The position numbers were made by a program, and so were the translations under genes. A stretch of DNA of 64,000 nt from positions 1 to 64,000 of the forward strand of contig CAMPDV010000017.1 in assembly GCA_946699065.1 (NCBI GenBank), read 5' to 3'. Below are positions 12,301 through 64,000 of the stretch, in pieces. The stretch is from Loxodes magnus. Taxonomy: Eukaryota > Ciliophora > Karyorelictea > Loxodida > Loxodidae. The stretch's first letter is position 1, and each line of letters starts with the position of its first letter. The notes under the pieces were generated by a model. That model was not told the DNA's origin and ran no database searches. It saw only the letters and a program-made list of their open reading frames with translations.

Positions 12301-12480
12301 CTTTTCTTACCTTACTTATTCACTTTTCTAAATACTTATTACTTCTCAAAGCATACTCCTTAAAACTGAAGGTCTATCTTCTTTTCTTACTTCACTTCTT
12401 CACTTATCCAAATACTTATTAATTCTCAAAGCATACTCCTTAAAACTGAAACTCTATCTTCTTCTCTAACTTTACTTCTT

Positions 12481-15400: not shown

Positions 15401-15720
15401 ACTCCTTAAAACTGAAACTCTATCTTCTTTTCTTAATTCACTTCTTCACTTATCCAAATACTTATTACTTCTCAAAGCATACTCCTTAAAACTGATGGTC
15501 TATCTTCTTTTCTTACTTTACTTCTTCACTTTTCTAAATACTTATTACTTCTCAAAGCATACTCCTTAAAACTGAAATTCTTTCTTCTTTTCTTACTTTA
15601 CTTCTTCACTTTTCCAAATACTTATTACTTCTCAAAGCATACTCCTTAAAACTGAAATTCTTTCTTCTTTTCTTACTTTACTTCTTCTCTTTTGCAAATA
15701 CTTATTACTTCTAAATGCAT
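12481..15720. repeat. 1443-bp higher-order repeat (18 satellite units), two full tandem copies plus a partial third
   Basis: The interval 12481-13923 is repeated at 13924-15366. Marker variants sit exactly 1443 bp apart: the rare CCTTAAAATTGAAA unit at 13638 and 15081, and the CTTCTCTTTTGC unit at 12798 and 14241. A third, partial copy starts near 15367 and diverges by about 15.72 kb. The size is 18 units plus 3 bp, the 3 bp coming from one long unit. Confidence 0.88.
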
Positions 15721-18789: not shown

Positions 18790-19130
18790 TGACTTCAAAA
18801 TTTTTCTAAGTCAAAATTATTAGCGTTTTAGTTAGCCGTTTTTACTTATAACTTCAAAAATTTTTCCTAAACTGAAAAAATTATCGTTTTAATTAACCGT
18901 TTTTACTTATAACTTCAAAAATTTTTCCTAAACTGAAAAAATTAACGTTTTAATTAACCGTTTTTACTTATAACTTCAAAAATTTTCCTAAACTGAAAAA
19001 ATTATCGTTTTAATTAACCGTTTTTACTTATGACTTCAAAAATTTTCCTAAACTGAAAAAATTATTAGCGTTTTAGTTAGCCGTTTTTACTTATAACTTC
19101 AAAAATTTTTCCTAAACTGAAAAAATAATA
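18790..19130 (+). repeat. About 60-bp minisatellite, roughly 5.5 copies
   Basis: The unit contains ACTTCAAAAATTTTTCCTAA, then ACTGAAAAAATTA, then CGTTTTAATTAACCG and TTTTTACTTATA. Copies follow each other at 60-65 bp with small indels. The first copy is degenerate (18790-18837) and the last ends at GAAAAAATAATA near 19130. Outer copies carry TTAGTTAGCCG and inner copies TTAATTAACCG, which suggests the inner copies were amplified from one another. Confidence 0.88.
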
Positions 19131-19475
19131 GAACTTTAACTTGCTTTTGCAGAAGGACATGGACTACTTACTTTTTTATAAACATGTAGACGAAACTTAA
19201 ATTAAACTTAACCTTAATAAATAACTAAAAAAAATTTTTAGAAAATCATAAACCAAAATAAAAAAGACTTAAAATTTTTTTTAAATTACTAAATACTTTA
19301 TTATTTTAATAATTTTATACTTATTAATACTTTAGTACTTTAATAACTTAATACATTTATAACTTAATACTTATTAATACCTTACTACTTTTATAACTTA
19401 ATAATACCTTAGTATTTTTATACTTTTATAACTTAAAACTTATTAATACCTTACTACTTTTATAACTTAATACTT
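19131..19475. other. AT-rich spacer grading into degenerate TTAATACTTTAATA repeats
   Basis: The right half (about 19300-19475) consists of irregular TTATTAATACCTTACTACTTTTATAA-like pieces that lead into the clean octamer array. No gene is seen. Confidence 0.6.
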
Positions 19476-19715
19476 TAATAACTTAATAACTTAATAACTT
19501 AATAACTTAATAACTTAATAACTTAATAACTTAATAACTTAATAACTTAATAACTTAATAACTTAATAACTTAATAACTTAATAACTTAATAACTTAATA
19601 ACTTAATAACTTAATAACTTAATAACTTAATAACTTAATAACTTAATAACTTAATAACTTAATAACTTAATAACTTAATAACTTAATAACTTAATAACTT
19701 AATAACTTAATAATT
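19476..19715. repeat. Octanucleotide microsatellite (AACTTAAT)n, about 30 copies
   Basis: A near-perfect run of the 8-bp unit AACTTAAT (ATTAAGTT on the minus strand), ending about 40 bp beyond the stop codon of the kinase-WD40 gene. It would therefore lie in or just past that gene's 3' untranslated region. It is not a ciliate telomere repeat (those are C4A2- or C4A4-like). Confidence 0.95.
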
Positions 19716-19753
19716 TAATAATTTAAATAACTTAAATGTTTATTTCACAATTC

Positions 19754-21474
19754 TCAATTCGCCACCTTCCACTTTCTTATGGTTGTGTCCGCAGAACCAG
19801 ATAACAACCATTTGTTGTCCTTACTCAATGCTATTGCGCAAATTTCTCCTGTGTGCCCCTATAATGTCTATATACAATCACCCGTATTAAAATTTCAAAT
19901 TTTGATCGTTTTGTCGTAAGACCCCGAAAATATAAAGTTCATGTCGTTACTTAAACAAATACTTCGCACAACATCCGAATGCCCATTGATAATTCGAATT
20001 AACTAACCAGTTGAGAAATCTCATACACGAATCGTTCCATCGTCACTTCCAGATACGATCCATTTCGTGTCATTGCTTAGTGCGATCGCTCCAACTCCTG
20101 ACTCGTTTCCTTTCAAGGTCCTCGTACAACTACCCGTATTGAAATCCCATACACGAATCGTTCCATCGTAACTACCAGATACGATCCATTTCGTGTCATT
20201 GCTTAGTGCGATCGCTCAAACTACAAACTCGTGTCCTTTCAAGGTCCTCGTACAACTACCCGTCCAGAAATCTCATACACGAATCGTTCAATCGTCACTT
20301 CCAGATACGATCCATTTCGTGTCATTGCTTAGTGCGATCGCTCCAACTCCTGACTCGTGTCCTTTCAAGGTCCTCGTACAACTACCAGTATTGAAATCCC
20401 ATACACGAATCGTTCCATCGTAACTACCAGATACGATCCATTTCGTGTCATTGCTTAGTGCGATCGCTACAACTCAATCCTCGTGTCCTTTCAAGGTTTA
20501 ATCTAAATTGTTAAATGATTACCTTATGCTTGATCGTAAGCTATTTAATACGGCATTATTTTTCCAGCGAATTGCGTCTTAGTTTCTTCAGTTATTTTCA
20601 TTTATCCAGAGATGGATGTTATTTATTGGATGCTTTGAATTTGTTTTGGTGGCTAAGGCTTGATTTGCTTTATTAGGCTTAGTAACTGTGCCTAAACTAC
20701 TTCTAAACTTAAGCGCTCTTAAGCTGCTTATTTCCAGCATCCTTAAATTAACAAACTATACTCTTAAGGACAATCCTCTGGAATTTCTTCTCTTCTTTCT
20801 TTTTTAATTCCTTTTTCTATGTAACGATCTTCAGCATCTTGAAAAGGTACTTCTCGAGTAGCTATTTCCCAAAAAATTACTCCTAATGCGAAAATGTCAG
20901 ATTGCTTGCCGTATTTTGGCTTCATGTCCATTAATTCAGGAGCCATCCATCTAATATTTCCGACTTTTTGCTGAGTTTTTAGAGATTTGGATTCAGTCCT
21001 GACTCGAGACAAACCGAAGTCCGTTATTTTTGCTTTACCTAGAATATCAATCATTATGTTATTGCTCTTTAGATCCCTGTGAATGATATTCTTTTTGTGG
21101 ATATGCTATAAACCTAAAACTATATCCAAACTTATTTTGTAACGCAATTCCCATGCTAATTCTTTTTTGTTATGCAATAGATTGAATAAGTTCTAGGGCA
21201 AGTATTCCATTATCAATTATAATGGAGATGAACAGTAACCATATACTGTTATAACATTCGGATGTCTTATTTTCTGAGTGATCGCTATCTCCTACTCCAA
21301 ATCATCCTTTGCCTACTATGATATATTTTAATTGAATAACTTTTTAATAGCTATCTCAATGTAACCTTACATCAAACCCTTGTAGACCACACCGAAACTT
21401 CCCTCATCGATTTTGCTTAGTTCCTAAATTTCAGAATTTTAAATGATGTAATCACTTTCACTTGCCGAAACCAT
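19754..21474 (-). CDS. TKL-type protein kinase fused to six WD40 repeats
   Basis: I read 566 residues from ATG at 21474-21472 to TGA at 19756-19754, using TAA/TAG = Gln, TGA = Trp and removing a 20-nt intron (20503-20522). Exons 21474-20523 and 20502-19754 total 1701 nt, exactly 567 codons. The kinase domain (about residues 20-268) shows a glycine loop DEGSFG (23-28, first Gly replaced by Asp), AIKK lysine 44, C-helix Glu 62, HRDLKSNN (132-139), DFG (152-154), GNIRWMAPE ending at 180 and SDIFALG (192-198). All catalytic residues are present, so it should phosphorylate proteins, probably Ser/Thr as in tyrosine-kinase-like (TKL) kinases. Six WD40 blades follow, probably a ligand- or partner-binding propeller. 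No signal peptide or membrane segment is seen. In-frame TAA/TAG in the kinase part read as Gln at plausible sites. TGA appears only in the WD40 part, on WD-type Trp positions and at one Gly/Trp variable site. Confidence 0.88.
20016..20500 (-). repeat. Four near-identical 126-bp WD40 units inside the kinase gene
   Basis: Units whose CATTTCGTGTCATTGC boxes lie near 20061, 20187, 20313 and 20439 are spaced 126 bp. They are nearly identical to the units of the large array at 35447-64000. They read TLKGHES, V-x-AIALSNDTK, WIVSGS-x-D-x-TIRVWD. Two of them carry Asn-Thr-Gly after VWDF with Trp encoded by TGG, while the others carry Trp-Thr-Gly or Ser-Thr-Gly with TGA. Two further blades (about 19754-20015) are clearly diverged, with IKIWNFNTG and TIRKWKV, so only the inner blades are being homogenised. 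Confidence 0.92.
20503..20522 (-). other. Probable 20-nt spliceosomal intron
   Basis: On the minus strand the segment starts GTAATC and ends TTTAG. Removing it joins the kinase frame (ending ..Asp-Gln-Ala-Gln) to the WD40 frame (Asp-Gln-Thr-Leu-Lys-Gly-His). It also makes the whole ATG-to-TGA span a multiple of three. Very short introns are usual in several ciliates. The alternative is a frameshift in a pseudogene, but the canonical GT..AG ends at the exact point needed favour an intron. Confidence 0.75.
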
Positions 21475-24400
21475 TTTTTTATAATTTTCATTTACTTGAA
21501 TTCATAAATACTTAAAAATACCAGAATTTAAAAGAATTTATTAACATATTTAAACAAATAAATAAATTTTTAAATTGAAAAATAGAACTGTTTTAAAACT
21601 TTTATAAAATGCTGAATCTTTAATAAAACAAACATAAATTTAAAAAAACTTTGAAATTAAATGAAAAAAATCAGAACTTGCATCTTAAAAATAACTAAAT
21701 ATTAAAAAGAAAAAAATCTCGTATGAAAAATATAATTAAGTAGTTATAAAAAGTAAAGCAATAATTATCTTAAATTTAAAAAATTATTAGAAAGAATATT
21801 ACATAAAGAAATAGAAATCAATGTAATAGAATAACAAAAACCAAGAGAATAATTTACTAAAATATTAATAATTTTAAATATAATCTTAAGCTTAACTAAA
21901 TAAATTATTTTAATTGTTAATAACTCAATTATTATAAACTTTTATAACTAGACAATTGAAATCTTTAAACAAGAAAATAAACTTGATTTTTATTATCTTT
22001 TACTAAATTAGAATATCATTTTTTTCAAAAACATTTTAAACTTAAAAAAAAGGTTTTAATAATAAAATCTATTAAGAGTACTAATAAAACAAAAATCATA
22101 TAAATAATAAAGATCTTTTAAATTATATCATCATAATTGATTATGTTTTAGGTTTAATAATTAGATAAATATTAAATAAAATTGATACAAATTTATATTA
22201 CAATTAAAAAACTTGATGAAATTCATAGTAAAACTTAAATAGATACATTGATGAATAAAAATAAAAAAAATTAAATAATAATAAACAAAAAACTTATATC
22301 ATTGACATAATTATCTAAATTATGACTTAATGAAATAATAAAATGCTAAATATTAATATAGCAATGAATATGTTTTCGATAAAATATATAATTGCTTCGT
22401 AAAATAAAAAATTAATAAAATCAAAGAACGTTATTACTCATATAAAATGTTTTTATATTAATAAGATATAAAGAGTTAAAGATGACTATATGGAATATAT
22501 AATGAATAAAACCATAAAATTTAAAAGTTCAATTACGACTAAGATTTAATACCTCTTTGTATTTAATAAATAAGCTAATAAACATTAAATAATAAAACAA
22601 AAGGTTTTTATTGCTTGAAATATGTTTATGCTCTTATTAAATAAAATAAGCTAAATTATTTAATTAAAAATACTTAATCTATAATAACTAATTGCTTAGA
22701 ACTCTTCAAACACATTTAAATAAATTATACCTCCAATTTATAAACTCAAACTTAAGAATTAAAACTCTAAAATATTTTTATTAAAAGTTTAAAGAATTTT
22801 ATTAAAAGGATAAAATATAAAAGATATTAAAATCAAAAAAAATATTATAGATTTTAAAATCATAAAAATGTTCATTATATGTATACAAAATAAAAAAAAT
22901 GAAATTTTTTTTTTAACCAACCAAGTACTAATATCATAAAAATGAAAATAAAAGAATAACTAAAAACAAAAATATCTGGAAATACAAAATTACATTATTA
23001 TAACGTTTTTATCATGCTTTCTTAAAACTCTTTTTTAATAAATTTTTATAATTATACATTGAAAATACAAAAATACAATAATTAAGAAAACAAATTATTT
23101 AAAACTAGGAAACATAAAGTTGATTATTTTTAAGAATTAAAATGTATTTAGTCAATTTCATAATTATTTTAAAAATAATTCCTAAGCAATAAATTTTTAT
23201 TTGATTTATTTTTAGCAAAAAAATTGAAGAATAAATAAAGTTAACTTCAATTTTTAATGGTGTTAACTAAACATATATAATTTTAAAGATACCAGCAAAA
23301 TAAAATTAGAACTAGCTTATTAAATAATAAAATTAAAAAAATAAAATGATTTGAAAACGAATTTCTATATCAAGTTGGAATATTTTAAAAAAGCATAAGT
23401 TAATTAAAATAAAATGTTTCTTATGATTTCAACGTTGTAGATTCAACTAAAAAGATTTTTTTCCTTTAGATTGTAAGTTTTTAAATTATATCAAAACTAT
23501 TAGCAATAAATTCCAAATAGTTATTTTAAGCTACATTTGCAAAGTAGGAAGATCTTTTTTAGTTCATTTATTTTGATCGTGCAAATTTTGAGTAATAATT
23601 AAAATTTTTAAGAATTGCAAAAGTATATAAAATAATTAATAATTTCTCTTCATTTAAATCAAAAAAATATAAATCTTTTATAAAAAGTCTGTATTAACGT
23701 TGTATAAGCCAAACTCTTTAGACTTATTTAAATATTAAGTGAATGAATTTACTAATAAAGATAATCTAAAAGACATAATTATGAGATCATTTTCAATTTT
23801 AAGAAAAATGTAAAGATTTGAACAGAAAGAAAAGCTAAATAATTAATATAAGATACTTACTTTAAAGTTTTAAGATACTACAAGAAGCATATAAAATTAA
23901 TTTAACGAGGCTGAACTATTTAGAGGAATAAGATAAATATAATTACAAAAGAAGCAACTTAAGATGAAACCTTGTTTTCTTTTTGCTTTACTATAATTAC
24001 TATTTGTCATTTCAACCATTGACCGATTAAGTTTCAAAGCTGAACTCAAAGATTAAGTCTACATGCTCAAAGAAGCTAAATAGTAAGTTAATATAAGATG
24101 TTTGCATTATTTTGAACTTTTTAAGGAAAAATTATAAACTAGATTAATAATTATATGGCAAACACGCAAGAATGTAAATAATAAATCTAAATTGACTTTG
24201 GTAGTTTATAAAAAAATCGAAGTACATGAATAACAAGAAAAAGTATTTATTTTGTCTGAATGATATTTAAGTAGAAGTTGAATAAAGAAAAAGACAACTA
24301 AAATAAGCAAGTATTTCATAATTATTTTAAACTAAAGATTAATTTAATCTTATTACTATTTATGCAAATTATTAAAATTCATTATTCATGCTTTAATATA

Positions 24401-27187
24401 ACTTTCACTTTATAAATAAAAAATATCTTAAATTTGAAGAAAATTATAAAAAAGACATAGAAATAAAGAAATAAAATTTTGCTTACTATTTGCAAAACTC
24501 TTTATTTAAAACTTCTTAAGCCTAAGATGTAATCATAAGAACCTTAATCCAAAGTATTAAGAATTACCAAAGGATTTGTCTAGAAACTCTTACATTAATG
24601 CTTTGAGATTGCTTTATTCGGGTATTATCTTAAAATAAAGGATTTCCTTATAATATAAGTGTCACAGGAGAAGCAGATTTTCTCTAGTTACCTATTACTA
24701 AAAATATAGCAAAAGTAGTAGTTGTAAGGTAAAATGGCTTTTAACCAACGTAGAAAGAAGATAACTTATTAATTTTGAGTTAATTTTAACTTTAGAAGAG
24801 ATTCTCCTAAGTTAATTCAACATAATATGCTTTTTGAATAACCAAAACTTTCTTTAAAGCGTCAAATTTTGAAATGGTAAGTAGCTCTCTTAGTAAACCA
24901 AACTTAGATATTTTAAGAAAATAATAGAGTTAGCTAATAAATTACAGATAAAAGAATAAGTTACTTAAATTATTAATCAGCTAAGCTAGTGCGTAATAAT
25001 ATTTTACTAGACTTTTAAAAGTTTCAATTCCATAAAATCAGAATAAGATTAAGATAAAGAGATGAAGATGTTTAGTAAGACAGAGTATAGTAACTTCAGT
25101 AAGAGTGCTAAGAACCAATTTAGAGCTTAAAGATTGACTTAACATTTTTTTGCGTAAGTAACCCTCTCATTATTCTAAAGCTTTCTGTTCTTCCGAGTAT
25201 TTTTAAAATTTTTTGAGATAAACAATTTAGATTAAGTCATATTAAGGAAATAAAGGTTTTACTTAGTATTTAGAAGAAATTAATTACTCCAATCTTTTAT
25301 TGAAAGAAAAAAAGAAAAATAGTTAAAGCAAGAACAAAAAAAATACTTGGTAGATTCCAAGACTAAATAATGAATAAGCTGATAAAATAGACACTTTGAA
25401 ATATCTAAGATAAATAAGCTAAAGAGAGCTAAAATTAAACAAAAAGATTAAGCACCATAAAGTTGACTAAAGAAAGAAACTTCTTATTAATTAGTACTAA
25501 TAGGTAAGTATTTAAAGGGAAATTTGAGAATATTCCAAACAAGAATTTCAAAGCATTGACTTATAGAAATTTATTAAACCCAATTAGTTGTTTATTTTTC
25601 AAAATCTAAGTGAGGAAAAATTTTAGATGCTTAAAGCTTAAAAGAAGATAAAAATTCTATTAAAAGACATCAACGTTTTGGTAGGTGTAAAGAAGTAAAT
25701 TTCTAATTAAGAGAAAATCTTACTTTTGGTATTGTGTCTTTACTAATTATTCTTGACTTATAATTAATAATCTACCTTTTTAAGCAAATAAAAAGACAGC
25801 TATCCTAGAAAAAGATTAAAAAATAAGAAGAAAGTCATTAGAAATATATAATTTCCTGGCTATAGGAGGATTACTTATGAAGTTTAAAGAGAATAGTCCT
25901 TTTTAAAGATTCTTTTAGCTAATTGAGTAGATTCTACCAAAAGTATTTCAAGCATTCTTTGATTAATCTTATTAGAAGAATATTTAAAGTAGAAAGCAAG
26001 TTAGCAGAATATAAAAATACTTAGTAAAGTGTTCCTTTCCAAAAAGATGTAAGAATAAATACTAAACTCAATAAGAATGTAAGTGGGTTTACTTAAGATG
26101 AATAGTTCAGCATTAATAATAGAAGCAAAATAAGATTGTTAAGGTATTCGAAGCTAGCAAGATAAGAATATACTAAACTTAATCGAAATTCCAAGAATTT
26201 CAGTCGTAACCTAGAAAGAATAAATAGTTGAGTCGAAGAATCTATAGATCAGTAAATTCAATAATAGAAAAAAGTTTTATTAGCTAAATAGCAGAACTAA
26301 AAAGCGAATTTAAACTTAAATTTATTGACTTGAGCTTTGAGATTAAGAAGTTGGCAATAGTGTATGATGTAATATTTATATTTGGACTTCTACTTGCTGA
26401 ATGATGCTTCGAATAAAATACTTCATATTATTTAGATCTGTTTATAAATAGAGAAATCCCTTAGAACAGCATAAAGCTTATTAAAAGTATTTGCTTTTGT
26501 CAATAATTTTGCAAATATTTAGCAAACTATTTACCAAATACAAAAAATGAATTCCTTAGCAATCATATTATAGAAGTTTACACTTTTAAAATTGAATGAG
26601 TCATAAAGAAGAGGTTTTGAGAGATAAATATTGTTTCAAAATACCATAGCCATGTAGTATAAGGCTAGCTTAAGATTCCACATCAATAAACAAAATAGCA
26701 AATTTAAGAAAATCTTGTTAATTAATTAGTCCAAATTTAAATATATTAATCATGATAAAGTTCTTAATCTTTAGATATCCCAATCAAGTAATCTTTAGTC
26801 CATTTTTACTCCTCTTTCTTTAGCTTTAATTTCCTCTTCAGTTTTTAATCTTAATTATTTGTTATAGCTATTTATTGGCGATTAAACCTCCTTTTTTTCT
26901 TTAAATTTCACTCTTTAATTTTAAATTCAAATTTTTATTATTAAATTATAAAAGCTTGAAGAACCAAAAAACATGTTTAAATTAAGCTTTTAAGTAAATT
27001 CTTAAAATCTATAAGAATATAGTAATAAAGGAAATTCTCTGAGGTATCAAAAAAATATTAAGAGCTTTAATTTGCAAATATAAGGTAATTTATTTAAGTT
27101 CTGTTAACACTGAAGGTTCAATCCAAAAGGAATAAATATAAGACAAAATACGCAATCAGTCAATCAAGTCTTTGGAAAAAATCTTAA
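21475..27187. other. AT-rich region without a gene I can name
   Basis: The left part (to about 23.3 kb) is extremely AT-rich with long A/T runs. From about 23.9 to 26.8 kb the DNA is visibly less AT-rich, with more AGAAG-type purine text on the plus strand. With all three stops possibly sense, every frame is open and all three plus frames give similar Gln/Lys/Asn/Leu-rich text. A hand count of G by codon position over 24661-25920 gave about 64, 53 and 62, which shows no coding periodicity. I recognise no family. Decayed gene remnants are possible. Confidence 0.5.
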
Positions 27188-27420
27188 GGCTAAACTTGTA
27201 AAGGAGAAATCTTAAAACTTTCTAAGATACAGAGAAGCAATAGAATGCTTTAGTAAACCGATTGAGCTTAAACTCTATTCTCATAACTTTTATTTTAAAA
27301 AAGTACAATCAACATAGTCTTAGAACATTCTTAAAATCTACTTAGATCTACGAAAAGCAATTAATTGAATTTTAGCTTAGATTTAACTTGCATAGGGAAA
27401 TTTATAAACACAACTATAAA
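27188..27420 (+). pseudogene. TPR-repeat-like fragment, probably decayed
   Basis: With TAA/TAG = Gln the plus frame reads FLRYREAIECFSKPIEL and then YSHNFYFKKV. This follows the tetratricopeptide pattern (x-YxEAIxCFxKAIEL then xNxxYFxKG), with Pro in place of the usual Ala after Lys and degenerate flanks. A second weak helix pair, YLDLRKAIN, follows. TPR proteins are scaffold or adaptor proteins. The match spans only about one and a half repeats with no convincing start or end, so I treat it as a relic or an isolated exon. Chance similarity is possible. Confidence 0.35.
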
Positions 27421-30400
27421 ACATCTACTATTAAAATTAAAAAGCTTAATTGTTTAGTTAATGAGACATAATATAGTGCTTAAAGCCTAAGCAATAAATA
27501 TTGCAAGAGGGTTAAATATAAATTTTTTTTAATTTAATTATAACTAATTCTCTCTTCTCTAAAACAATGACCAATTCAAATTCGAAACATTAAGTTTAAC
27601 TTACTGACATCAAAGACAGAATAGAAAAAATAACTTTCTTAAATGATCTACAAAAATACAGAAGAATCTATATTTCTTACTGACTGTAGAGCTTAAAATC
27701 AAAAGATGAAAAGCCTAAACAAATAAAAAGGATTATTATTATTTTTAGACAGAAACAAGAAACAATTATTATTTACCAAAGTAGAAAAAACTAAACCTAA
27801 TTAAAAGACTACTTGTTGATTCAATTATATATAAGAACCTTCATTATTAATACAAATATAATTATTTGTTTAGACTTATAGATAAAATCATATAAAAATA
27901 TCTTAATTAAACTGAAGAACTTTAAGTTTAATATTAATCTATCTCTAATGATTATTATCTATACTGCTAAAGTTTTATTTATTTGTATTTTTATCTTTAT
28001 TTATTAAGTTTTTTCAAAATTTATCTAAAACACTTTAACTAAAATGATTGCTAATATAAAACAAATAAGAGAGTAAATGTTTAAAGTATTTGTTTAAATA
28101 ATTTAGTATAAAGTGAAATGAAGAATTAATACTAAATAATTATAGTGTCTTATATTAGTTAAATTTTACTCTATTATTACATAGATACCTAATATTAGTT
28201 TTTTTTGCTAAATATGCTTCTAATATAATAGTTTTTTTAAGTTTCCATAAATCCTTATAATTTTCTTTATACCAACATCATAAATTATATAATACTGTCT
28301 TCCCTTCTACTAAAGACTTTAGAAGGATATATTTTAGTTGTTATAATGTCTATTAAAATAGCATACTTTTATAAATAAAGAAGTTTAGGGTTATATGTTA
28401 CAAATCTAAATAGTCATAATAATAGGAGATTTTATGCATTATTGGTTTTCTCTTTTTAGATATATTAACTTCTTAGTAAAGGTTTCATATCTCTGTCTTC
28501 TACCTTCTTTCATTTGCATTTAAAGTTTTGAAGATAATTTCCTTTTATTTTAAGATTAAAGCTCTCCTTTATAAATATTCTTTCTTGAATTAAACAACAT
28601 TATTAATTCAACAAAAGGAATTATTATTAAGTATTAATGAAAATAATAACAATATGATATACTATAATCTAAACTATATAAAAACGAATATTTATTTGAA
28701 ATTACTAGTTAAAGATAATTAGACTAATTAAGATTATTAAAGCTACTAAATAAAATTTGTGATTATAATAATAGGATTAACTAAAAGAACATTTTAATTG
28801 TATAATCATTCTTTAAATTTAGTTTAAATCTCTTATTTTAACTTTTAATTACTAAATAAAACTGGATACTCTTTACTTATGAACAATCTATTTACATTTT
28901 ATTTACTTGAAGAATTGCAAATTTACACACTATTATCAATTTTCATTATGCCCTTTAATTCTATTGGTAAATATTATAAAAGAATTTCTCACTGAAGCCA
29001 GTTTCTTTAAGATCTTCTTTTTTTCAGGATAAAAATAAGTTTTTGGTGTTTTTTAGATTTATTAAAAAGTCTACTTGGATTTTATAATGTTTTTGCTCAT
29101 AAGTTCTACATTTTTTACCTATAGATGGAAATTACAAAATTAGTTTAGATAACATTAGATTAATTATCTAATTTAGCTTTATTTATATCTGCGCTTTATT
29201 ATAATTTTGCCCATATTTTTCTTGCTTCATTCATAAATCACTTTTTCTATATTTTTATCCAGTTAAAAGAAAACTTACTTTAAGGTTTTGCAATTAATTT
29301 TTTGTTTTTCTTTAATTGTCTATAGCATTTTAAAATTTTATTGAGCGAATCCAAAAGGACTTCATAAATTTTTGCTTTCCTCGAATAAAAATTCGAACTG
29401 GTAGAAGAACTATCTTTATTTTATCCCTAACTACTTAGTCTCACTTTTTTCTGAGTATTTTATGCATGATATTCTGTCAAAGTTTATAGCTTTCCTCTCA
29501 ATCGATTTTTTTAACTCTTCTAGTTTCAATCATTTCTCGAATTTTTTTATAAAGCCTGGAAGTAAAATTTTTTTTAGGGTTAAGTTAAGCTTTTTTGTTT
29601 AGTTTTTAACATTCTCGCTCTGATTTATTATCTCTTTAATAATTTAAGCTTAATCATTAGTTCTTGGTTGAGAGAACTTTAGCCCATTTCTAAGTCGACT
29701 TTTGAAGAGCTAAGAGTAAATAAGAGATTAAAGCTGTTCTCTCAGTTTTCTATTTTTTCAATTGTATCTTTTATTTTTAAATTTAAAGTGAAATAAGCAA
29801 GCTTCACTAATTACAATTGGAGCATATATTTGACTAGTAATTACTATAGCCTTATTTAAACATTACTAATAAATTAAAACTTTTTAAATTAAATAGCCTT
29901 CTACAGTTTATTATTATGCTTTAGTTATAATTTTTTATTAGATCTCTTTTATTAATCTTTAGCCTCATTATTTATGTTTCTTAATTACATTTAACTATTA
30001 CATTATTAAAGTGAGAAACTTATTCTTTGCTTCTTAATTTAAATATTATATTGTTATTAGTTACTAAAAGAGAGATATATAAACATATGATAATCTTCTG
30101 GGTTAATTAAAATTTTATAAAATAGAGCTTCCTATAATAGTTAAAAGGAAATATTTACTATCTTAACTAAATAGATAGCCAACACTGTTTCTTCTTTTAT
30201 CTCTTTCCAAATTTCTAATTTTACTACCTCTATCCATAATTTGATTTAGGCTCGATAGATCTGAGTTTTGACTTTGAAAGTTTCTGTTCTTTAAATTTTT
30301 ATTTCCAGTTACACCACAAACTATTTGATGCCTTCAGATATTTCCTATCAAATTAACTTGCAACTTTATTATATTTTTCCTCTAATTATTTGTGGATGCT

Positions 30401-31099
30401 AAACAATTTCAACATCAAAGGAGTTAACTTGAGGCTTGCTATTAATAAACTCCTGAATCTTATAAGTGCAAAGGCTAAAAATTTCAAGCGATTCTTTAGT
30501 TTCTTTCCAAATAATCATTTATACTTTCTCTCTTAACATTTAGCCACTAGATTCTTTTTCTAGCAGCGAGATACTTTAGCTTGTAGTTATAAAGAATAAT
30601 GGATTTAACTAAATAGCAATAATTCTCTTAAGATAATGATAGCTTAAATATCTCTTTTAATAGTTCTAATTAATCTAAAAAATAAATTAGTTTAGTTACT
30701 TTATATTTATAAACTTTAAGATCTCATATTGCTATTCATATTTTACTAAATCAAAGTCAGATATTAAATAATGAAGATAATAAGACAGCAAAAAACTTAA
30801 AAGAAGGATGGGTATTTTTAATTAAGAGAAAAGGTTTACTTAAGAAGAGTATTTTAGGAGATAAAATACTCTAGAAAGAAATAAAGAAATAATAAAGAAT
30901 AAATAAGATAATTAGTTTTATGCTAAGCAATAAATAGCTAAGCTTTTGGAAATCATATTTTGAATGAAGATATTTTATGGAATTTTAACTTTATGCTCAG
31001 ATACTAAATTTAAGTGTCTTGTAATTGATAAAAGTTATATTAAAATTCGAGATTCGAATTGATTAGAGAAATTTTAGTTTTAATTAATTAATAAAAGAA
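27421..31099. other. AT-rich region, no nameable gene; possible minus-strand coding remnant near 30.1-30.6 kb
   Basis: About 28.9-30.6 kb is T-rich on the plus strand, as expected if a purine-rich coding strand were the minus strand. In the minus frame read from 30600 toward 30150, I see text such as MLREKVQMIIWKETKESLEI. C on the plus strand over 30181-30600 is enriched at the class that would be codon position 1 of this frame (32 against 19 and 24). That is weak support for coding. I cannot assign a family, start or end. A plus-strand ATG at 27567 also opens an unrecognised frame. Confidence 0.4.
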
Positions 31100-31990
31100 A
31101 GAAACTAGATTATAAGAATAAGAAAACGAGAAATGCAATCCTTAAGAACTAATCGAAGTCTTTAATCAAAATGTAAAGCACTTTTATGTGTTGATAGTTT
31201 AAGACCAATAAGATTGCTGGGTGAAATTATTGATTCCTCTTTAGAACATAATAAAAGTATTTTTTATACTGAATACATATCTAAAGTTAACTAATATGAA
31301 TAAACAAATTATAGGAAACTATTTTAAGATAGAGGAAACCCTTAATTAAGATTTAACAATAAGCTGTAATTGATTTATTAAATAGCTGACGGAATTTAAG
31401 CATTTCATTAAATCGATTTTATTTTTAGAGATAAAATCGTTAAATGTTTTATTAGATGAAAATGAATAATCTGAAATAGCATATCTTAATCAGTTAGAGG
31501 TATAATTACTATTACATTAGAATTGAAAGGTTCATTTTAAAAAGGGTTCATAAACTATTTTATAATAAAAAAGTGATATTAGATATTAAGCAAGCGTAAC
31601 ATAGTAGTATTAAATGAAAGATTATTCTATGTAGATTTTTAAACACATGCATAAATAATGAAATTTACTTATATAGAAAAAAATAGGTTTTTCAAGTGAA
31701 AAAACAAAAAAATCATAGATAGTTGTCTACCAAAAAATATTTCTACAATGAAAAAGTTTAAATACTAGATATTGCTGTTTTTAAGTATTAAATAGAGTTG
31801 ATGAAACAAAATAAGGTTCTACAGGACAATAAATTGAATATTAAGGTTCAAAAACAAAATATAAGAGCAAGAAAGAAAAATAAGTTAAAATTTTATGAAT
31901 TAATAGCTCATATATAGAGCTCTTAAAATTCTTAATGTTAGGAATTAAGAGGAAACTATTAATAGTAAAATACTTTTTCTAAAGATACTT
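31100..31990 (+). pseudogene. Broken TKL-type protein kinase
   Basis: Kinase subdomain motifs appear in order on the plus strand but in different frames. First comes IRLLGEIIDSSLEHNKS and an EYIS-type hinge. Next is KLQLIYQIADGIQAFHQID, then FIFRD where HRD is expected (31421-31432), so the catalytic His is lost. Right after it the frame changes and IKSLNVLLDENEQSEIA follows, matching the catalytic-loop Asn and beta-7/8 region. The DFG is replaced by Tyr-Leu-Asn. Further on (31750-31810) EKVQILDIAVFKYQIELM resembles the EKVDIYSFGVxLYEL segment. At least two frame changes and several lost invariant residues point to a pseudogene. Introns could explain some frame changes but not the lost HRD and DFG. 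It may be a relative of the kinase at 19754-21474. Confidence 0.6.
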
Positions 31991-32090
31991 TGAACTATAA
32001 AGAAAGTAAATAACCAAGCAAGACTCTGATTATACTTTTAATTGAGTTAAAAATTATAAAAAATATTATATAAATAAATAAATAAATTTG

Positions 32091-32131
32091 ATTATAGAGC
32101 GCGTAGCACTCTCGTTGGTGCGCAGCTCTTT
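32091..32131 (+). repeat. Left terminal inverted repeat
   Basis: It pairs with 33478-33518 reversed. It is itself imperfectly palindromic (GAGCGCG..CACTC against GTGCGCAGCTC), so each end could fold into a hairpin. Confidence 0.75.
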
Positions 32132-32142
32132 AAAAAAATGTT

Positions 32143-32275
32143 TCATACTGACAAGTATGTTTGTTACTGATAAAATTATCAGATACTGATAAACCTTGTT
32201 CAATACTGGTATAATTATTCAGTACTGATAAAAATGTTCAATACTGATATAATTTTAGAATACTCGTAATCTTTA
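32143..32275 (+). repeat. Subterminal TACTGATAAA-type short repeats
   Basis: Six imperfect copies of a TACTGATA core (variants TACTGACA and TACTGGTA), spaced about 18-25 bp, lie just inside the left end. Short subterminal repeats are common binding sites for transposases in DNA transposons. Assignment to that role is inference. Confidence 0.65.
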
Positions 32276-32310
32276 ATACTTACTGAAGGTCCAAGGACAT
32301 GGCAGGATTG

Positions 32311-32539
32311 TGTCTCATTGCATCACCAAAGCAGAGGGCGACATGTGTCAATTATGGGTACTTAAATTCCCCACCTCTGATGAAGTTCGCAATATTATTT
32401 CTTTATGTTCCAGAATTAAAAATAAACGAAGCCAAGCCAGTGTCGAAGGTCTAAGAATCTTATGTCTCGAGGTCAAACAAAAGCAGAGGAAGACATAAAG
32501 TCGATTATGGGTACTTAACTTCCCCAACCTCTGATGAAG
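32311..32539 (+). repeat. 75-bp direct duplication inside the element
   Basis: 32311-32385 and 32463-32539 share TGTCTC, AAAGCAGAGG, GACAT, ATTATGGGTACTTAA, TTCCCC and CCTCTGATGAAG in the same order. Short open frames on both strands here are caused by the moderately GC-rich duplicated text and have no family match that I recognise. Confidence 0.8.
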
Positions 32540-32874
32540 ATGACCTTGTTGTTCACCTTCGAACAACTATGGCGGTTTTAAAAAATATATATAATAAAAA
32601 AATGAATATCAAAAACCTTCATATGAATAAGTATTCTATAATATAATTTAAAGCATTTAACATCAAACTTTACATTCAAATAATAATTCTTTATCAATAA
32701 ATTAGTTTCTTAGTAATATTGATAATTAGGGGATAAATCATTTTGCTTATAAAAAACTAAAATTGAACCTTCTAAAATAAACTTTAGGAATGAGAATTTC
32801 TCACTCATTACTTAATAAAATAAATAAAACTTTTAATTAATTTACAAAATATTAATTAATTAATTAATTTTAAC

Positions 32875-33160
32875 TTAAAGAGTTTTGGACTGCAATTTCT
32901 TGCAGTTTAACGACCCCAACACTCCCTTCATGGGATAACGGGGATATCCTGTTGCTTTCGAAAAGCAGCTGCCAGGGAGCTCCATCGCTATGGGCAGCCA
33001 GGCTTCAAGCCCCTTCCAGGAGTGGATAATCAAAAGGAAGGCGTTCCCTTGCAAAGGTTGACTTTGACCAGGGACTTTCACAGCGACAGGAAAGGAACTT
33101 GTTCCTAGCCATAAAACCAGAAAGTATGATTCAGAAGGTCAATCTCAGCTCCCACCATCT
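32875..33160. other. GC-rich core of the inverted-repeat element with several small hairpins
   Basis: This stretch is about half G+C in an otherwise very AT-rich neighbourhood. It contains perfect small stems such as CTGCAA/TTGCAG (near 32890) and GGAAC/GTTCC (near 33095). A 68-residue minus frame (33081-32875) has no stop codon of any kind and reads PVAVKVPGQSQPLQG-like text if extended upstream, but I do not recognise it. It could be a structured RNA, a captured fragment or a decayed gene. Confidence 0.45.
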
Positions 33161-33477
33161 TTTTAATTATTATAAAATATTAATTAATAACTAGAAAGCT
33201 AGTAATTAAACTGCTATTATATATATTTTTAATTTAAATAGGGTTGTCTTTACCTTTTAAGGCCGCGAGAAGAATTCCCTAGAGAAAAATTGACTGAAAA
33301 GCAACCTTTTCTAAATGTTGAACCAGATTAATTTCTTCATCATGGTTGAAAATCTACCTGTAATCGCCTGTTGGCGGCCTGTGTTATGGAGATTTTGAAC
33401 CGCAACCTTGCCCACAAATAGAAGAGAGAATGCTATGAGAATATTGGAGATTAATGAGACTTATAAACTGACTTTTT

Positions 33478-33518
33478 TAAAGAGATGCGCCCTAATGTAA
33501 GGCTACGCACTCTATAAT
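33478..33518 (-). repeat. Right terminal inverted repeat
   Basis: The reverse complement begins ATTATAGAGTGCGTAGCC and ends GCGCATCTCTTT, matching the left end at 32091-32131. It also has internal dyad symmetry (GGCTACGCACTC against GAGATGCGCC). Confidence 0.75.
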
Positions 33519-35423
33519 GGCATTGTTTTTTATGAGTTCCAATCCTTAAGTATAGAAATATAAATTAAAGTTTATTTAATGAGAAGCCCTAGTCAAGTAA
33601 ATAAATCATACTTTAAGCTCCTAAAATACAGGAAAGGATTTAAAATTTTATATCATAATTTTAAGATGCCTAGGAAATTGATACTCATATATTGAATATT
33701 CAAATTTAAATTAGATAGAGAAATGTAATCAAATGCAAAAATCAGAAGTCAAATATTTTAAAAATAATAGCCTGAGGAAAAACTTTCTTTGCAAGGAAAT
33801 AAAAAGATATCTAATCTTAGTTCAGATTAATAGATTATCCTTATAAAAATAATTTAAATATTATATAATTAAAAAAATTATAAAATAAAATATCTTATAT
33901 GATATATATATTAAAAAAAAACTAAAAAAAGATCAAAGCCTGAAGAACAAAAAAAATCGTCTTCTGAGTATTTTAGTAAAAAAAGATTTGTTGCTATATA
34001 TTCAATAAAATAAAGTAAAATTTTGTTGAGTAAAAATAAATAAGAAAAAACCGAAATTTTTTCTAAAATCATAAAAGTCTCAAATTTTAAGCATAAATTT
34101 TAAATTTGTATTTCCAATAGTTGAGAAAATTTACATCGAATTAGAAATAGATTTTTATCGTTGTAGTAAAAGTGAAATCTAAGATTAATTTAAAATATAA
34201 AAAGAAAAAAAGTAACGAAAAACAATAAAGATATCTTAAAACAATTTAAGGAATAAAAGCAATGAAAGGATGAACAACGAAAAACAAAGCTGATCCATAA
34301 AAAATAAAAAAGTAAAAAACTTTCAAAAATTAAGTTGAAAAAATATAAAATTTGGTCATATAACATTGAAAAAAAACAAAGTCAATAAAATGAAATCGAT
34401 AGCTCTAAAAATAATACAATTATAAAATAGAAAAATATCTTAAAATTAAAAAAAAATCGTTTTTGATAAAGACTCTGAAAATTTTGAATCCAAGTAAAAC
34501 ATGTTCGACTTCCAGCTTTACAAGTTTATAAAGTTTATCATAAAGCTTTAAAAATTTATATATTTTTGGTTTATATCTTAAGTAAAATTTAAATCTTATT
34601 GATTAGGTATCACATGATGCTTTTTTCTTTTTGCTTTTGCACTTTCAGTCACTTGAGGGTATGAAAGTCCTTTTTCTCAAAAATCGCTTCAAAAATTTTT
34701 CTTGATACTAAATTTGCGAAACTTTTCATAAGAGCTTCGTGCATCAGACGCTGTAAATTTTCTCATCAACTTTCTTGGGTCTTGCAACTTTAATTTAAAG
34801 TTTTAATGGATCTTATTGCTAAAACAAAAGATTTTTTTCTTATATTCTTTGTTAAATTCAATATAGTCTGTCGTCTAGCTTAATCATGGTCTTAAATTAA
34901 GTTGTTGCATAAATAAGTAGTAGTTTAAAGCTCTTAAATTTAAATGAGAAGACTGCCTTAGCTAACTGACAAATATGTAAGGTCAATCGTCTTCAACATT
35001 AGAAGATATCTTATTTTATCATTTACGCTTAATTTTAAAACACTTCTAAAGAATTCAATAGATTAAAGAATTGCAGAAGCGCAATAAAAAAGTAAGATGT
35101 AGAACTGTTCTTCGGATAGCTCAATAAAAAAAAAGTTTTTTTAGAATAAACATTTTCACAAATCTTAACTTGTTTAGAATCTACTAAAAAAAAAATTTAA
35201 AAAATTTAAAATTTAAAAAATTAAAAAAAGAAAAACTTAAAAAAAAATTGATACTTAAAAAAATTAAAAATGAAAGCATAATTAATTGAAAAAAATTTAA
35301 TTAAAAAATATTGCGAAAAAAAAAGTAGAAACAAAAAAAAATCGTAAAAAAAAAAAACTATAAAAATAAAAAATAAAAAATAAAAAAATAAAAAAAAAAA
35401 AAATTATTAAACAAAGCGAACAC
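33519..35423. other. AT-rich spacer between the inverted-repeat element and the WD40 array
   Basis: A-rich text on the plus strand with poly-A tracts, densest at about 35165-35405. The stretch 34.6-35.1 kb is less AT-rich and its minus frame reads plausible protein text. Positional base counts there do not favour that frame, so I call nothing. Confidence 0.5.
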
Positions 35424-50400: not shown

Positions 50401-53400
50401 TTGCTTAGTGCGATCGCTCAAACTACTGACTCGTTTCCTTTCAAGGTCCTCGTACAACTACCCGTCCAGAAATCTCATACACGAATCGTTCCATCGTCAC
50501 TTCCAGATACGATCCATTTCGTGTCATTGCTTAGTGCGATCGCTCAAACTCCTGACTCGTTTCCTTTCAAGGTCCTCGTACAACTACCCGTCCAGAAATC
50601 TCATACACGAATAGTTCAATCGTCACTTCCAGATACGATCCATTTCGTGTCATTGCTTAGTGCGATCGCTAAAACTACTGACTCGTTTCCTTTCAAGGTC
50701 CTCGTACAACTACCCGTCCAGAAATCTCATACACGAATAGTTCAATCGTCACTTCCAGATACGATCCATTTCGTGTCATTGCTTAGTGCGATCGCTAAAA
50801 CTACTGACTCGTTTCCTTTCAAGGTCCTCGTACAACTACCCGTCCAGAAATCTCATACACGAATCGTTCCATCGTCACTTCCAGATACAATCCATTTCGT
50901 GTCATTGCTTAGTGCGATCGCTCCAACTCCTGACTCGTTTCCTTTCAAGGTCCTCGTACAACTACCCGTCCAGAAATCTCATACACGAATCGTTCCATCG
51001 ACTCTTCCAGATACGATCCATTTCGTGTCATTGCTTAGTGCGATCGCTCCAACTCCTGACTCGTTTCCTTTCAAGGTCCTCGTACAACTACCCGTCCAGA
51101 AATCTCATACACGAATCGTTCCATCGTCACTTCCAGATACGATCCATTTCGTGTCATTGCTTAGTGCGATCGCTCAAACTACTGACTCGTTTCCTTTCAA
51201 GGTCCTCGTACAACTACCCGTCCAGAAATCTCATACACGAATCGTTCCATCGTCACTTCCAGATACAATCCATTTCGTGTCATTGCTTAGTGCGATCGCT
51301 AAAACTCCTGACTCGTTTCCTTTCAAGGTCCTCGTACAACTACCCGTCCAGAAATCTCATACACGAATCGTTCCATCGAAACTTACAGATACAATCCATT
51401 TCGTGTCATTGCTTAGTGCGATCGCTAAAACTCCTGACTCGTTTCCTTTCAAGGTCCTCGTACAACTACCCGTCCAGAAATCTCATACACGAATCGTTCC
51501 ATCGACTCTTCCAGATACGATCCATTTCGTGTCATTGCTTAGTGCGACCGCTAAAACTCCTGACTCGTTTCCTTTCAAGGTCCTCGTACAACTACCCGTC
51601 CAGAAATCTCATACACGAATCGTTCAATCGTCACTTCCAGATACGATCCATTTCGTGTCATTGCTTAGTGCGATCGCTCAAACTACTGACTCGTTTCCTT
51701 TCAAGGTCCTCGTACAACTACCCGTCCAGAAATCTCATACACGAATAGTTCAATCGACACTTCCAGATACGATCCATTTCGTGTCATTGCTTAGTGCGAT
51801 CGCTCAAACTACTGACTCGTTTCCTTTCAAGGTCCTCGTACAACTACCCGTCCAGAAATCTCATACACGAATCGTTCCATCGTCACTTCCAGATACGATC
51901 CATTTCGTGTCATTGCTTAGTGCGATCGCTCAAACTCCTGACTCGTGTCCTTTCAAGGTCCTCGTACAACTACCCGTCCAGAAATCTCATACACGAATAG
52001 TTCAATCGACTCTTCCAGATACGATCCATTTCGTGTCATTGCTTAGTGCGATCGCTCAAACTCCTGACTCGTTTCCTTTCAAGGTCCTCGTACAACTACC
52101 CGTCCAGAAATCTCATACACGAATCGTTCCATCGTCACTTCCAGATACGATCCATTTCGTGTCATTGCTTAGTGCGATCGCTCAAACTACTGACTCGTTT
52201 CCTTTCAAGGTCCTCGTACAACTACCCGTCCAGAAATCTCATACACGAATAGTTCAATCGTCACTTCCAGATACGATCCATTTCGTGTCATTGCTTAGTG
52301 CGACCGCTCAAACTACTGACTCGTTTCCTTTCAAGGTCCTCGTACAACTACCCGTCCAGAAATCTCATACACGAATCGTTCCATCGTCACTTCCAGATAC
52401 GATCCATTTCGTGTCATTGCTTAGTGCGATCGCTCAAACTACTGACTCGTTTCCTTTCAAGGTCCTCGTACAACTACCCGTCCAGAAATCTCATACACGA
52501 ATAGTTCAATCGACTCTTCCAGATACGATCCATTTCGTGTCATTGCTTAGTGCGATCGCTAAAACTACTGACTCGTGTCCTTTCAAGGTCCTCGTACAAC
52601 TACCCGTCCAGAAATCTCATACACGAATCGTTCCATCGTCACTTCCAGATACGATCCATTTCGTGTCATTGCTTAGTGCGATCGCTAAAACTCCTGACTC
52701 GTTTCCTTTCAAGGTCCTCGTACAACTACCCGTCCAGAAATCTCATACACGAATAGTTCAATCGACTCTTCCAGATACGATCCATTTCGTGTCATTGCTT
52801 AGTGCGATCGCTAAAACTCCTGACTCGTTTCCTTTCAAGGTCCTCGTACAACTACCCGTCCAGAAATCTCATACACGAATCGTTCCATCGAAACTTACAG
52901 ATACAATCCATTTCGTGTCATTGCTTAGTGCGATCGCTAAAACTCCTGACTCGTTTCCTTTCAAGGTCCTCGTACAACTACCCGTCCAGAAATCTCATAC
53001 ACGAATCGTTCAATCGTCACTTCCAGATACGATCCATTTCGTGTCATTGCTTAGTGCGATCGCTCAAACTACTGACTCGTTTCCTTTCAAGGTCCTCGTA
53101 CAACTACCCGTCCAGAAATCTCATACACGAATCGTTCCATCGTCACTTCCAGATACGATCCATTTCGTGTCATTGCTTAGTGCGATCGCTCAAACTACTG
53201 ACTCGTTTCCTTTCAAGGTCCTCGTACAACTACCCGTCCAGAAATCTCATACACGAATAGTTCATCCGTCACTTCCAGATACGATCCATTTCGTGTCATT
53301 GCTTAGTGCGACCGCTCAAACTACTGACTCGTTTCCTTTCAAGGTCCTCGTACAACTACCCGTCCAGAAATCTCATACACGAATCGTTCCATCGTCACTT

Positions 53401-62400: not shown

Positions 62401-64000
62401 TCGTTTCCTTTCAAGGTCCTCGTACAACTACCCGTCCAGAAATCTCATACACGAATCGTTCCATCGTCACTTCCAGATACAATCCATTTCGTGTCATTGC
62501 TTAGTGCGATCGCTATTTCGACTCGTTTCCTTTCAAAACTACAATCCATTTCGTGTCATTGCTTAGTGCTCGTTTCCTTTCAAAAACTACTCGTTTCCTT
62601 TCAAGGTCCTCGTACAACTACCCGTCCAGAAATCTCATACACGAATCGTTCCATCGTCACTTCCAGATACGATCCATTTCGTGTCATTGCTTAGTGCGAT
62701 CGCTAAAACTCCTGACTCGTTTCCTTTCAAGGTCCTCGTACAACTACCCGTCCAGAAATCTCATACACGAATCGTTCCATCGTCACTTCCAGATACAATC
62801 CATTTCGTGTCATTGCTTAGTGCGATCGCTAAAACTACTGACTCGTTTCCTTTCAAGGTCCTCGTACAACTACCCGTCCAGAAATCTCATACACGAATCG
62901 TTCCATCGTCACTTCCAGATACAATCCATTTCGTGTCATTGCTTAGTGCGATCGCTCCAACTACTGACTCGTTTCCTTTCAAGGTCCTCGTACAACTACC
63001 CGTCCAGAAATCTCATACACGAATCGTTCCATCGTCACTTCCAGATACGATCCATTTCGTGTCATTGCTTAGTGCGATCGCTAAAACTACTGACTCGTGT
63101 CCTTTCAAGGTCCTCGTACAACTACCCGTCCAGAAATCTCATACACGAATCGTTCCATCGTCACTTCCAGATACAATCCATTTCGTGTCATTGCTTAGTG
63201 CGATCGCTCCAACTCCTGACTCGTTTCCTTTCAAGGTCCTCGTACAACTACCCGTCCAGAAATCTCATACACGAATAGTTCAATCGACTCTTCCAGATAC
63301 AATCCATTTCGTGTCATTGCTTAGTGCGATCGCTAAAACTACTGACTCGTGTCCTTTCAAGGTCCTCGTACAACTACCCGTCCAGAAATCTCATACACGA
63401 ATCGTTCCATCGAAACTTACAGATACGATCCATTTCGTGTCATTGCTTAGTGCGACCGCTCAAACTACTGACTCGTTTCCTTTCAAGGTCCTCGTACAAC
63501 TACCCGTCCAGAAATCTCATACACGAATCGTTCCATCGTCACTTCCAGATACAATCCATTTCGTGTCATTGCTTAGTGCGATCGCTAAAACTACTGACTC
63601 GTTTCCTTTCAAGGTCCTCGTACAACTACCCGTCCAGAAATCTCATACACGAATCGTTCCATCGTCACTTCCAGATACGATCCATTTCGTGTCATTGCTT
63701 AGTGCGATCGCTCAAACTCCTGACTCGTTTCCTTTCAAGGTCCTCGTACAACTACCCGTCCAGAAATCTCATACACGAATCGTTCCATCGTCACTTCCAG
63801 ATACGATCCATTTCGTGTCATTGCTTAGTGCGATCGCTCCAACTCCTGACTCGTTTCCTTTCAAGGTCCTCGTACAACTACCCGTCCAGAAATCTCATAC
63901 ACGAATAGTTCAATCGTCACTTCCAGATACGATCCATTTCGTGTCATTGCTTAGTCGATCGCTAAAACTACTGACTCGTTTCCTTTCAAGGTCCTCGTAC
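35424..64000 (-). CDS. Giant WD40-repeat protein, C-terminal part (or a non-coding WD40 satellite)
   Basis: If translated with TGA = Trp, the minus strand encodes about 9,500 residues of WD40 repeats in this window, ending TRTLTLLDVDY at TGA 35426-35424. Its 5' end lies beyond 64000. WD40 repeats fold into propellers of about seven blades, so this would be some thirty propellers. The frame contains no TAA or TAG, but nearly every unit has TGA at the VWD tryptophan, and many have further TGA codons. The frame shifts at 62485-62675 (+1) and at about 63955 (-1), and the two cancel. Most units have Asn instead of His in the GH motif. These facts leave open a real giant gene, a decayed one, or a repeat reservoir. 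No start codon, promoter or N-terminal domain is visible. Confidence 0.45.
46562..48578 (-). repeat. Higher-order repeat of eight WD40 units (1008 bp)
   Basis: The rare GCGACCGCT variant (Ile to Val on the minus strand) marks units near 46882 and 47890, 1008 bp apart. The flanking run of at least five units has the same variant order in both copies. The same marked block recurs near 52302 and 53310 (again 1008 bp apart) and near 56080. Others (47890 to 48646, 53310 to 54066, 56080 to 56836) are spaced 756 bp, six units. This pattern shows unequal exchange or conversion over multi-unit blocks. Confidence 0.82.
62485..62675 (-). repeat. Irregular, rearranged unit in the WD40 array
   Basis: Here two CATTTCGTG boxes lie 62 bp apart and the next 128 bp further, so 190 bp replace the expected 126. 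The text repeats fragments (CGTTTCCTTTCAAAA twice) without the CGTACAACTACCCG part. The change is +1 modulo 3. It is the only major break in the visible array, and looks like a slippage or repair scar, or an assembly error. Confidence 0.85.

Follow-up and report, generated by a model that had tools for sequence, protein, structure and literature searches.

Near-identical WD40 blades that are diversified on their top face are already known from fungal NOD-like receptors (NLRs) and from bacterial proteins. Among 69 repeats of Podospora, Paoletti et al. showed that codons 7, 9, 25, and 27 are strongly positively selected, and that these codons flank the conserved codons 8 and 26, with 7 and 9 located in the d-a loop and 25 and 27 in the b-c turn (PMC1805685); the instability of Podospora WD40-repeat arrays has also been demonstrated directly (PMC2873952; papers are cited here by PubMed Central number, each for an excerpt of its text). 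The highly repetitive WD40 proteins of Hu et al. (2017) likewise show diverse hotspot sites, and kinases associated with WD40 repeats are common in Cyanobacteria and Planctomycetes but less so in eukaryotes (PMC5587647). Using a stretch of 64,000 nucleotides from the karyorelict ciliate Loxodes magnus (contig CAMPDV010000017.1, positions 1 to 64,000; hereafter the window), we observe a minus-strand gene at 21474-19754 in which a tyrosine kinase-like (TKL) kinase is joined to near-identical WD40 blades. On the same strand, 13,973 bases away (21474 to 35447), the same 126-bp WD40 unit forms an array of 227 copies (35447-64000), the upstream (5′) end of which lies beyond the window. This confirmed an earlier note on this DNA, which had placed about 226 copies of the unit about 14 kb from the gene.

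We consider the best explanation of this locus, with a probability of roughly 0.6, to be a diversified kinase-WD40 receptor gene accompanied by a derived, probably untranslated satellite that was seeded from A-type blades, i.e., from one of the two blade types described below. Under this explanation a karyorelict gene (genetic code table 27) would encode a TKL kinase with a C-terminal propeller of near-identical blades, these blades would undergo duplication, loss, and exchange, and the top-face residues beside the conserved strand-a Val and b-c-turn Asp would stay diverse, as they do in HET-D/HET-E. Binding of a ligand by the propeller would then set the activity or the target of the kinase. 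The array would be a tandem satellite seeded by one or few A-type blades of the gene or of a paralogue, expanded by turnover that also shuffles an 80-bp satellite in the same window, and it would now be mostly free of protein-level constraint. Among open-licence papers, none named both "Loxodes" and "WD40", and none of the titles and abstract beginnings listed from the ciliate, protist, or kinome literature with WD40 described this arrangement.

Structure and genetic code of the kinase-WD40 gene

The gene can be read as a 566-amino-acid protein from an ATG at 21474 to a stop TGA at 19756-19754, and the coordinate 19754, from which the earlier note started its feature, is the end of this stop codon. 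Exon 1 (20523-21474, minus strand, 317 full codons) encodes the N-terminus and the kinase domain, and in a Pfam scan this frame matched PF07714 (2.7e-55) and PF00069 (2.2e-54), the two scoring alike. Of the 60 PDB matches listed for the kinase frame, out of 2724, 59 are TKL members (CTR1, B-Raf/Raf-1 and fusions, MAP3K12, and Roco4), and the top row among those listed is EGFR (9p9u). Judged from these listed matches rather than from a tree, the kinase domain appears to be nearer to TKL than to other groups.

Exon 2 (19754-20502, minus strand) encodes six WD40 blades and the stop TGA, with six PF00400 stretches (1.6e-72) identified by the Pfam scan in a frame that differs from the kinase frame. 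The two frames are joined into the 566-amino-acid reading by a 20-nt GT...AG stretch at 20522-20503 on the minus strand (20% GC), which is the best intron candidate, although further GT-AG pairs restore the frame too and the splicing is therefore putative. The structure predicted for the six blades has a mean predicted local distance difference test score (pLDDT) of 91.1 and a predicted template modelling score (pTM) of 0.89. Its best-ranked PDB match is the seven-bladed WD40 domain of Thermomonospora (5yzv), to which it fits less closely than does a model made for the array (root-mean-square deviation [rmsd] 3.0). The top PDB matches of both models are WD40 propellers; the closure of the gene domain by six blades is putative. 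The Pfam matches, the PDB matches, and the candidate-intron join bear out the claim that a TKL kinase is joined to near-identical WD40 repeats.

In exon 1, 20 of 32 Gln codons are TAA or TAG, TGG occurs four times, and TGA does not occur. Exon 2 contains six in-frame TGA codons read as Trp: blades 2, 4, and 5 each have one for the Trp of the WD motif, and the other three occupy codons 7, 9, and 27 of blades 1, 3, and 2, respectively (codons are numbered from 0, the Thr of TLKG); the last 46 codons contain no coding TGA. In L. magnus, UGA encodes Trp away from the mRNA end and is also a stop, coding UGAs are depleted near the stop in Loxodes, introns average 19.3 nt, the GC content of coding sequences is 33.5%, and tandem repeats are abundant in the genome (PMC11441545). 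The GC fraction of exon 1 is 0.334, and that of the 300 bases upstream of the gene is 0.143. One gene combines the table-27 karyorelict traits, i.e., TAA and TAG as Gln, TGA as both Trp and stop, and a tiny candidate intron, and these traits together with the GC contrasts point to a karyorelict ciliate gene (Loxodes-like).

Tandem Repeats Finder (TRF) reports the gene blades as a short 126-bp repeat at 20015-20497, and our analysis of the individual blades, all on the minus strand, identified two types. Blade 1 (20372-20497) and blade 3 (20120-20245) are B-type, with Tyr at codon 25 (position D-1), TGG for the Trp, and FNTG in common. Blade 2 (20246-20371) and blade 4 (19994-20119) are A-type, with Asp at codon 25, TGA for the Trp, and a different residue at codon 35. 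Blade 2 is one base from each of two array units, and every one of its bases occurs in the array; blade 4 matches an array unit exactly over its initial 106 bases and diverges thereafter. Blades 5 and 6 (19754-19993) are diverged, C-terminal, and followed by the stop codon. Base differences per 126 are 7 between blades 1 and 3, 13 between blades 1 and 2, and 11 between blades 2 and 3, and comparison of blades 5 and 6 with the other blades gives 53-63. The gene thus contains blades that are nearly identical within one protein, as in highly repetitive or recently amplified WD40 proteins. The earlier description of homogenised inner and diverged outer blades holds for blades 1-3 and 106 bases of blade 4 on the one side and for blades 5-6 on the other, but the diverged blades are at one end, the C-terminal one, only.

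The GC fraction is 0.450 in blades 1-4, 0.376 in blades 5-6, and 0.454 in the array (35454-64000), compared with the kinase exon as above and 0.12-0.14 in the flanks. GC-biased conversion is a possible cause of the GC-rich, homogenised blades.

Variation at the HET codons in the gene blades and the array

The array is highly regular. TRF reports 215 copies with 97% matches at 35447-62536 and then 11.6 copies to 64000, and a search with a 15-base unit anchor (up to 4 substitutions allowed) found 232 minus-strand copies, of which 227 belong to the array, with anchors spaced by exactly 126 nt in 224 of 226 intervals. All array counts that follow use the 224 regular units, with three irregular units excluded. 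These 224 units comprise 73 distinct sequences, and multi-unit blocks of up to 7 units recur (in 200 shuffles the longest block was 3 units in 127, and never above 5).

Our survey of the units identified 26 minor alleles, of which 14 have 5 or more copies; unit positions 34-61 carry none, in line with the claim that variation is concentrated at a few codons. When the 42 codons are ranked by amino-acid heterozygosity, the top four are codons 9, 25, 27, and 7, i.e., the four codons selected in Podospora, for which the odds are 1 in 111,930 if codons are taken as equally likely and independent. The codons that they flank are conserved, with codon 8 being GTT in all 224 units and codon 26 being GAT in 222 of them. 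The register with HET was set by spacing and structural landmarks, not by an alignment with HET-E; for example, in blade 1 of the gene WD40 model, codons 25-27 lie in the link from strand b to strand c, and codon 7 just ahead of strand a. Three of the four codons, 7, 9, and 25, are equivalent to the positions that Wu et al. call R1-2, R1, and D-1, which are predicted top-face contact residues (PMC3419727). In the array, 24 of the 26 minor alleles are nonsynonymous (P = 0.045, from one haplotype).

The same codons vary in the gene. Over codons 0-37 of blades 1-4, residue differences occur at codons 4, 6, 7, 9, 25, 27, and 35, with silent-only differences at 23, 32, and 36, so that all four HET codons are among the seven residue-variable ones (P = 0.0005). 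A later Podospora study gives seven positions in its own numbering (10, 11, 12, 14, 30, 32, and 39; PMC12222747), and if five is the offset between the two numberings, which the spacing suggests, these positions coincide with five of the seven residue-variable codons of blades 1-4 (P = 0.0008). The analogy with HET-E/HET-D that the earlier note had drawn is therefore supported, since the top four array codons are the HET four and all four vary in blades 1-4. At the sequence level, this four-codon match supports top-face diversification of the kinase protein.

An 80-bp satellite at 1-17115, identified by TRF and taken as noncoding, served as an internal control; 174 of its 185 regularly spaced units were kept, and 11 with at least 23 differences were dropped. 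Its common variants, at 28 of 80 sites, are unclustered (P = 0.64-0.70; 0.98), whereas those of the WD40 unit are clustered (P = 0.013-0.025). The satellite starts at the first base of the window, with about 214 copies and a strongly asymmetric strand composition (GC skew about -0.75). A transversion excess in the array was rejected as a sign of selection or targeted mutagenesis, since transversions make up 22 of 33 common alleles in the satellite and 11 of 14 in the array. On the plus strand, A/C is the leading variant class in both (7 in the array; in the satellite narrowly, 12 versus 11 and 11), which is an unusual transversion bias.

Origin of the array and alternative explanations

Examination of the variants that the array does or does not share with the gene suggests where the array came from. 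At six of the 14 common array sites (12, 22, 27, 28, 75, and 81), blades 1-4 of the gene show both alleles, and five of these six are within codons 7, 9, 25, and 27. The other eight sites are private to the array; two of them are within these codons (P = 0.17), and two are silent, close to the 22.8% expected (86 of 378 possible changes). With this proportion of silent sites and no four-codon excess, the array looks neutral. We therefore rejected the four-codon match as evidence for the array being selected coding sequence as sole explanation, since the signal sits in the six gene-shared sites and not in the eight private ones; gene and array have most of the hotspot signal in common, and its source was probably the gene or a paralogue. 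There are 12 rare array alleles (at most 4 copies), which include changes at Trp32, Asp26, Val31, and Gly37. In addition, the His of the GH dipeptide, which we take to be part of the structural tetrad, is replaced by Asn in 187 of 224 units, and the array contains two frame-breaking events on the minus strand, a rearranged stretch with micro-duplications and a net gain of 64 bases (62418-62685) and a unit with a 1-base deletion (63868-63993), both in the final 1.6 kb of the window. The rare alleles at structural residues, the loss of the GH His, and the frame-breaks argue against present purifying selection in the array.

The direction of descent looks like gene to array, and not array to gene. 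The bases that distinguish B-type blades 1 and 3 (unit positions 71, 98, and 105-107) occur in 0 of 224 regular units, and 10 bases of blade 1 and 7 of blade 3 cannot be tiled from the array. At unit positions 105-107, blades 1, 3, and 5 have AAT, whereas blade 2 and all 224 array units have TGG; the presence of AAT in both the B-type blades and diverged blade 5 suggests that the array arose from A-type blades. On comparison of the sequences, the shared segments reflect common origin or past exchange between gene and array.

Several observations weigh against a diversified gene with a neutral satellite as we propose it. The gene has six blades, compared with the usual seven, and could be a short or failing allele. 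An AlphaFold model made without an alignment for one seven-unit stretch of the array (50700-51581) is a predicted seven-bladed propeller (pLDDT 88.4, pTM 0.86) that superposes on 5yzv with a template modelling (TM) score of 0.93 and an rmsd of 1.2; this model says only that the array unit is predicted to be folding-competent. Over the whole unit, the ratio of nonsynonymous to synonymous diversity (piN/piS) is 1.27, which in one haplotype is no clear selection signal. Counted by residue, the array-private states fall at six codons, two of which (9 and 25) are of the HET four (P = 0.09), and 0 of the 12 rare alleles is silent, slightly below chance. Irregular intervals are far fewer among blade units (2 of 229, three gene intervals included) than in the 80-bp satellite (23 of 209, two long intervals omitted; P = 3e-6). 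Finally, seven of the eight array-private sites fall within unit positions 62-91, i.e., 30 nt around the b-c turn (P = 0.004, or 0.012 when several window sizes are allowed for), and a neutral satellite does not predict this clustering.

The scarcity of indels as a sign of frame selection was weakened on comparison with the satellite, since the ratio of indel classes to distinct point alleles is similar in both (2 to 26 in the array, 4 to 47 in the satellite). Private variants around the b-c turn also occur as linked haplotypes, for example 62T-70T-75T-76T, which is carried by 22 units identical over codons 20-28 and is absent from blades 1-4; these linked sets may be conversion tracts from an unseen blade.

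It is the clustering of private variants around the b-c turn that keeps alive the possibility that the array functions in recognition, either as a library of more than 220 variant blades that feeds the kinase receptor by gene conversion or as a translated mega-receptor, and we consider such a function unlikely. In the second form, the array would make up the C-terminal exon of a giant gene, with over 9,400 blade residues and a kinase or other head located past 64000; we regard this as improbable. The exact spacing would preserve the frame across nearly the whole array (its openness under table 27 is no evidence), the predicted fold resembles the WD40 domain of PkwA, the variation is hotspot-centred, and the 3′ end of the array reads into a TGA and then AT-rich DNA. 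However, the frame is broken twice near the end of the window, the private and rare alleles look unconstrained, the GH His is mostly lost, a TGA read as Trp occurs 19 codons ahead of the putative stop, in a zone that is depleted of coding UGA in Loxodes, and no diverged capping blade is present at the 3′ end.

The first form, in which the array is an active donor and gene conversion copies blades from it into the kinase gene to give new specificities, is likewise improbable, even though array units suffice to tile blade 2 with zero private bases, the first 106 bases of blade 4 are those of one array unit, the six shared sites carry identical alleles in gene and array, and all four allele combinations occur in 62 of 91 array site pairs. 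This four-gamete mixing also occurs in 165 of 378 site pairs of the 80-bp satellite; low linkage is common to both, and variant reshuffling as a feature special to the array was therefore rejected. In addition, eight common array alleles are found in none of blades 1-4, and together with the absence of B-type bases from the array this argues that exchange is not frequent. The array as a working reservoir of variants, as first proposed, is thus not borne out, given no excess of private sites at the HET codons, no B-type bases, and the same reshuffling in a satellite.

We give similarly little credence to a reading in which gene and array are both decaying, with TGA as a true stop and the WD40 part a pseudogene beside a satellite. 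TGA is solely a stop in ciliates that use table 6, the kinase exon has four TGG and no TGA codons, and the change of frame between kinase and blades requires the candidate intron; against this, of the six in-frame TGAs three (including that of diverged blade 5) stand for the Trp of the WD motif and two occupy top-face codons 7 and 9, a 20-nt GT-AG stretch restores the frame, and all six blades retain a WD40 match. Least probable is that the copy number and order of the array are partly an assembly artefact, for although the authors of the Loxodes genome ascribe differing assembly sizes to misassembly of low-complexity repeats and used a 96% identity threshold (PMC11441545), 73 distinct sequences and recurrent blocks of up to 7 units look resolved.

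The remainder of the window contains further repeats. A TTAATAAC microsatellite of about 48 copies (19340-19735) starts 19 bases downstream of the kinase gene stop, and a 61/121-bp tandem repeat at 18792-19126 is distinct from the other arrays. Between gene and array (21.6-35.4 kb), 12 frame translations gave no Pfam match above the cut-off and one below it (E = 0.034). This interval includes a 1.4-kb element (32080-33529) whose terminal inverted repeats are imperfect (79% over 28 nt and 87% over 23 nt); it is slightly GC-richer than its surroundings and looks like a miniature inverted-repeat transposable element (MITE) or a short DNA transposon remnant. Across the whole window there was neither an Rfam match at gathering thresholds nor a tRNA. 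The consensus of the 126-bp unit contains the octamer GCGATCGC, which raised a bacterial (cyanobacterial) origin of the GC-rich unit; a few searches gave no support for this. The exact 23-base core of the unit had 0 matches in viral_contigs and genome_contigs, with no eukaryotic genome collection among those searched, and the WD40 protein of the gene matched three loci in bacterial and archaeal metagenome-assembled genomes at 22-38% identity.

Comparison with known systems

The closest likeness is to HET-D/HET-E and the HNWD family of P. anserina, which also have near-identical WD40 units of 126 bp and 42 residues (PMC12222747) that are common to several loci, with HET-D/HET-E varying at two residues around a conserved strand-a position and two around the b-c Asp. 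In HNWD proteins, however, HET and NACHT domains lead the WD40 part, whereas the two frames of the gene scanned here match neither and only kinase and propeller families. The locus also differs in its kinase head, its six blades, and a 227-copy array that lies outside a demonstrated gene. In design, by this analogy, the kinase-WD40 protein resembles a diversifying recognition protein of the HET kind, though it stands outside the HNWD family.

PkwA of Thermomonospora curvata and other bacterial kinase-WD40 proteins also combine a kinase and repetitive WD40 in one protein (PMC5587647 and PMC6805158), and the Thermomonospora WD40 domain is the best-ranked PDB match of both our models; unlike these, the gene described here has a eukaryotic TKL kinase, a ciliate-type code and intron, and a linked blade array. 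In WRAP and recently amplified propellers, a single blade has been amplified recently, and disrupted copies are known (PMC9218822 and PMC6805158). The survey maximum reported in the excerpt of PMC9218822 is 47 blades, compared with 227 visible copies here, the translation of which is putative, and a translated mega-receptor would have nearly five times the blades of that largest surveyed propeller protein. Among ciliates, the leucine-rich repeat (LRR) genes of Tetrahymena with 90-bp exons are also repeat-bearing and fast-evolving, unequal crossing-over has been proposed for them, and WD40 and protein kinase are among the domains of species-specific genes (PMC6564038); the LRR exons are split by introns, whereas the WD40 blade run here is intronless.

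The linked array makes the locus a natural test case for the direction of descent, from coding repeats into satellites or from satellites into genes. With a TKL-kinase version in a karyorelict ciliate, the codons that vary in the fungal proteins would have been put to use independently, which would suggest that this scaffold is chosen repeatedly for fast-evolving recognition.

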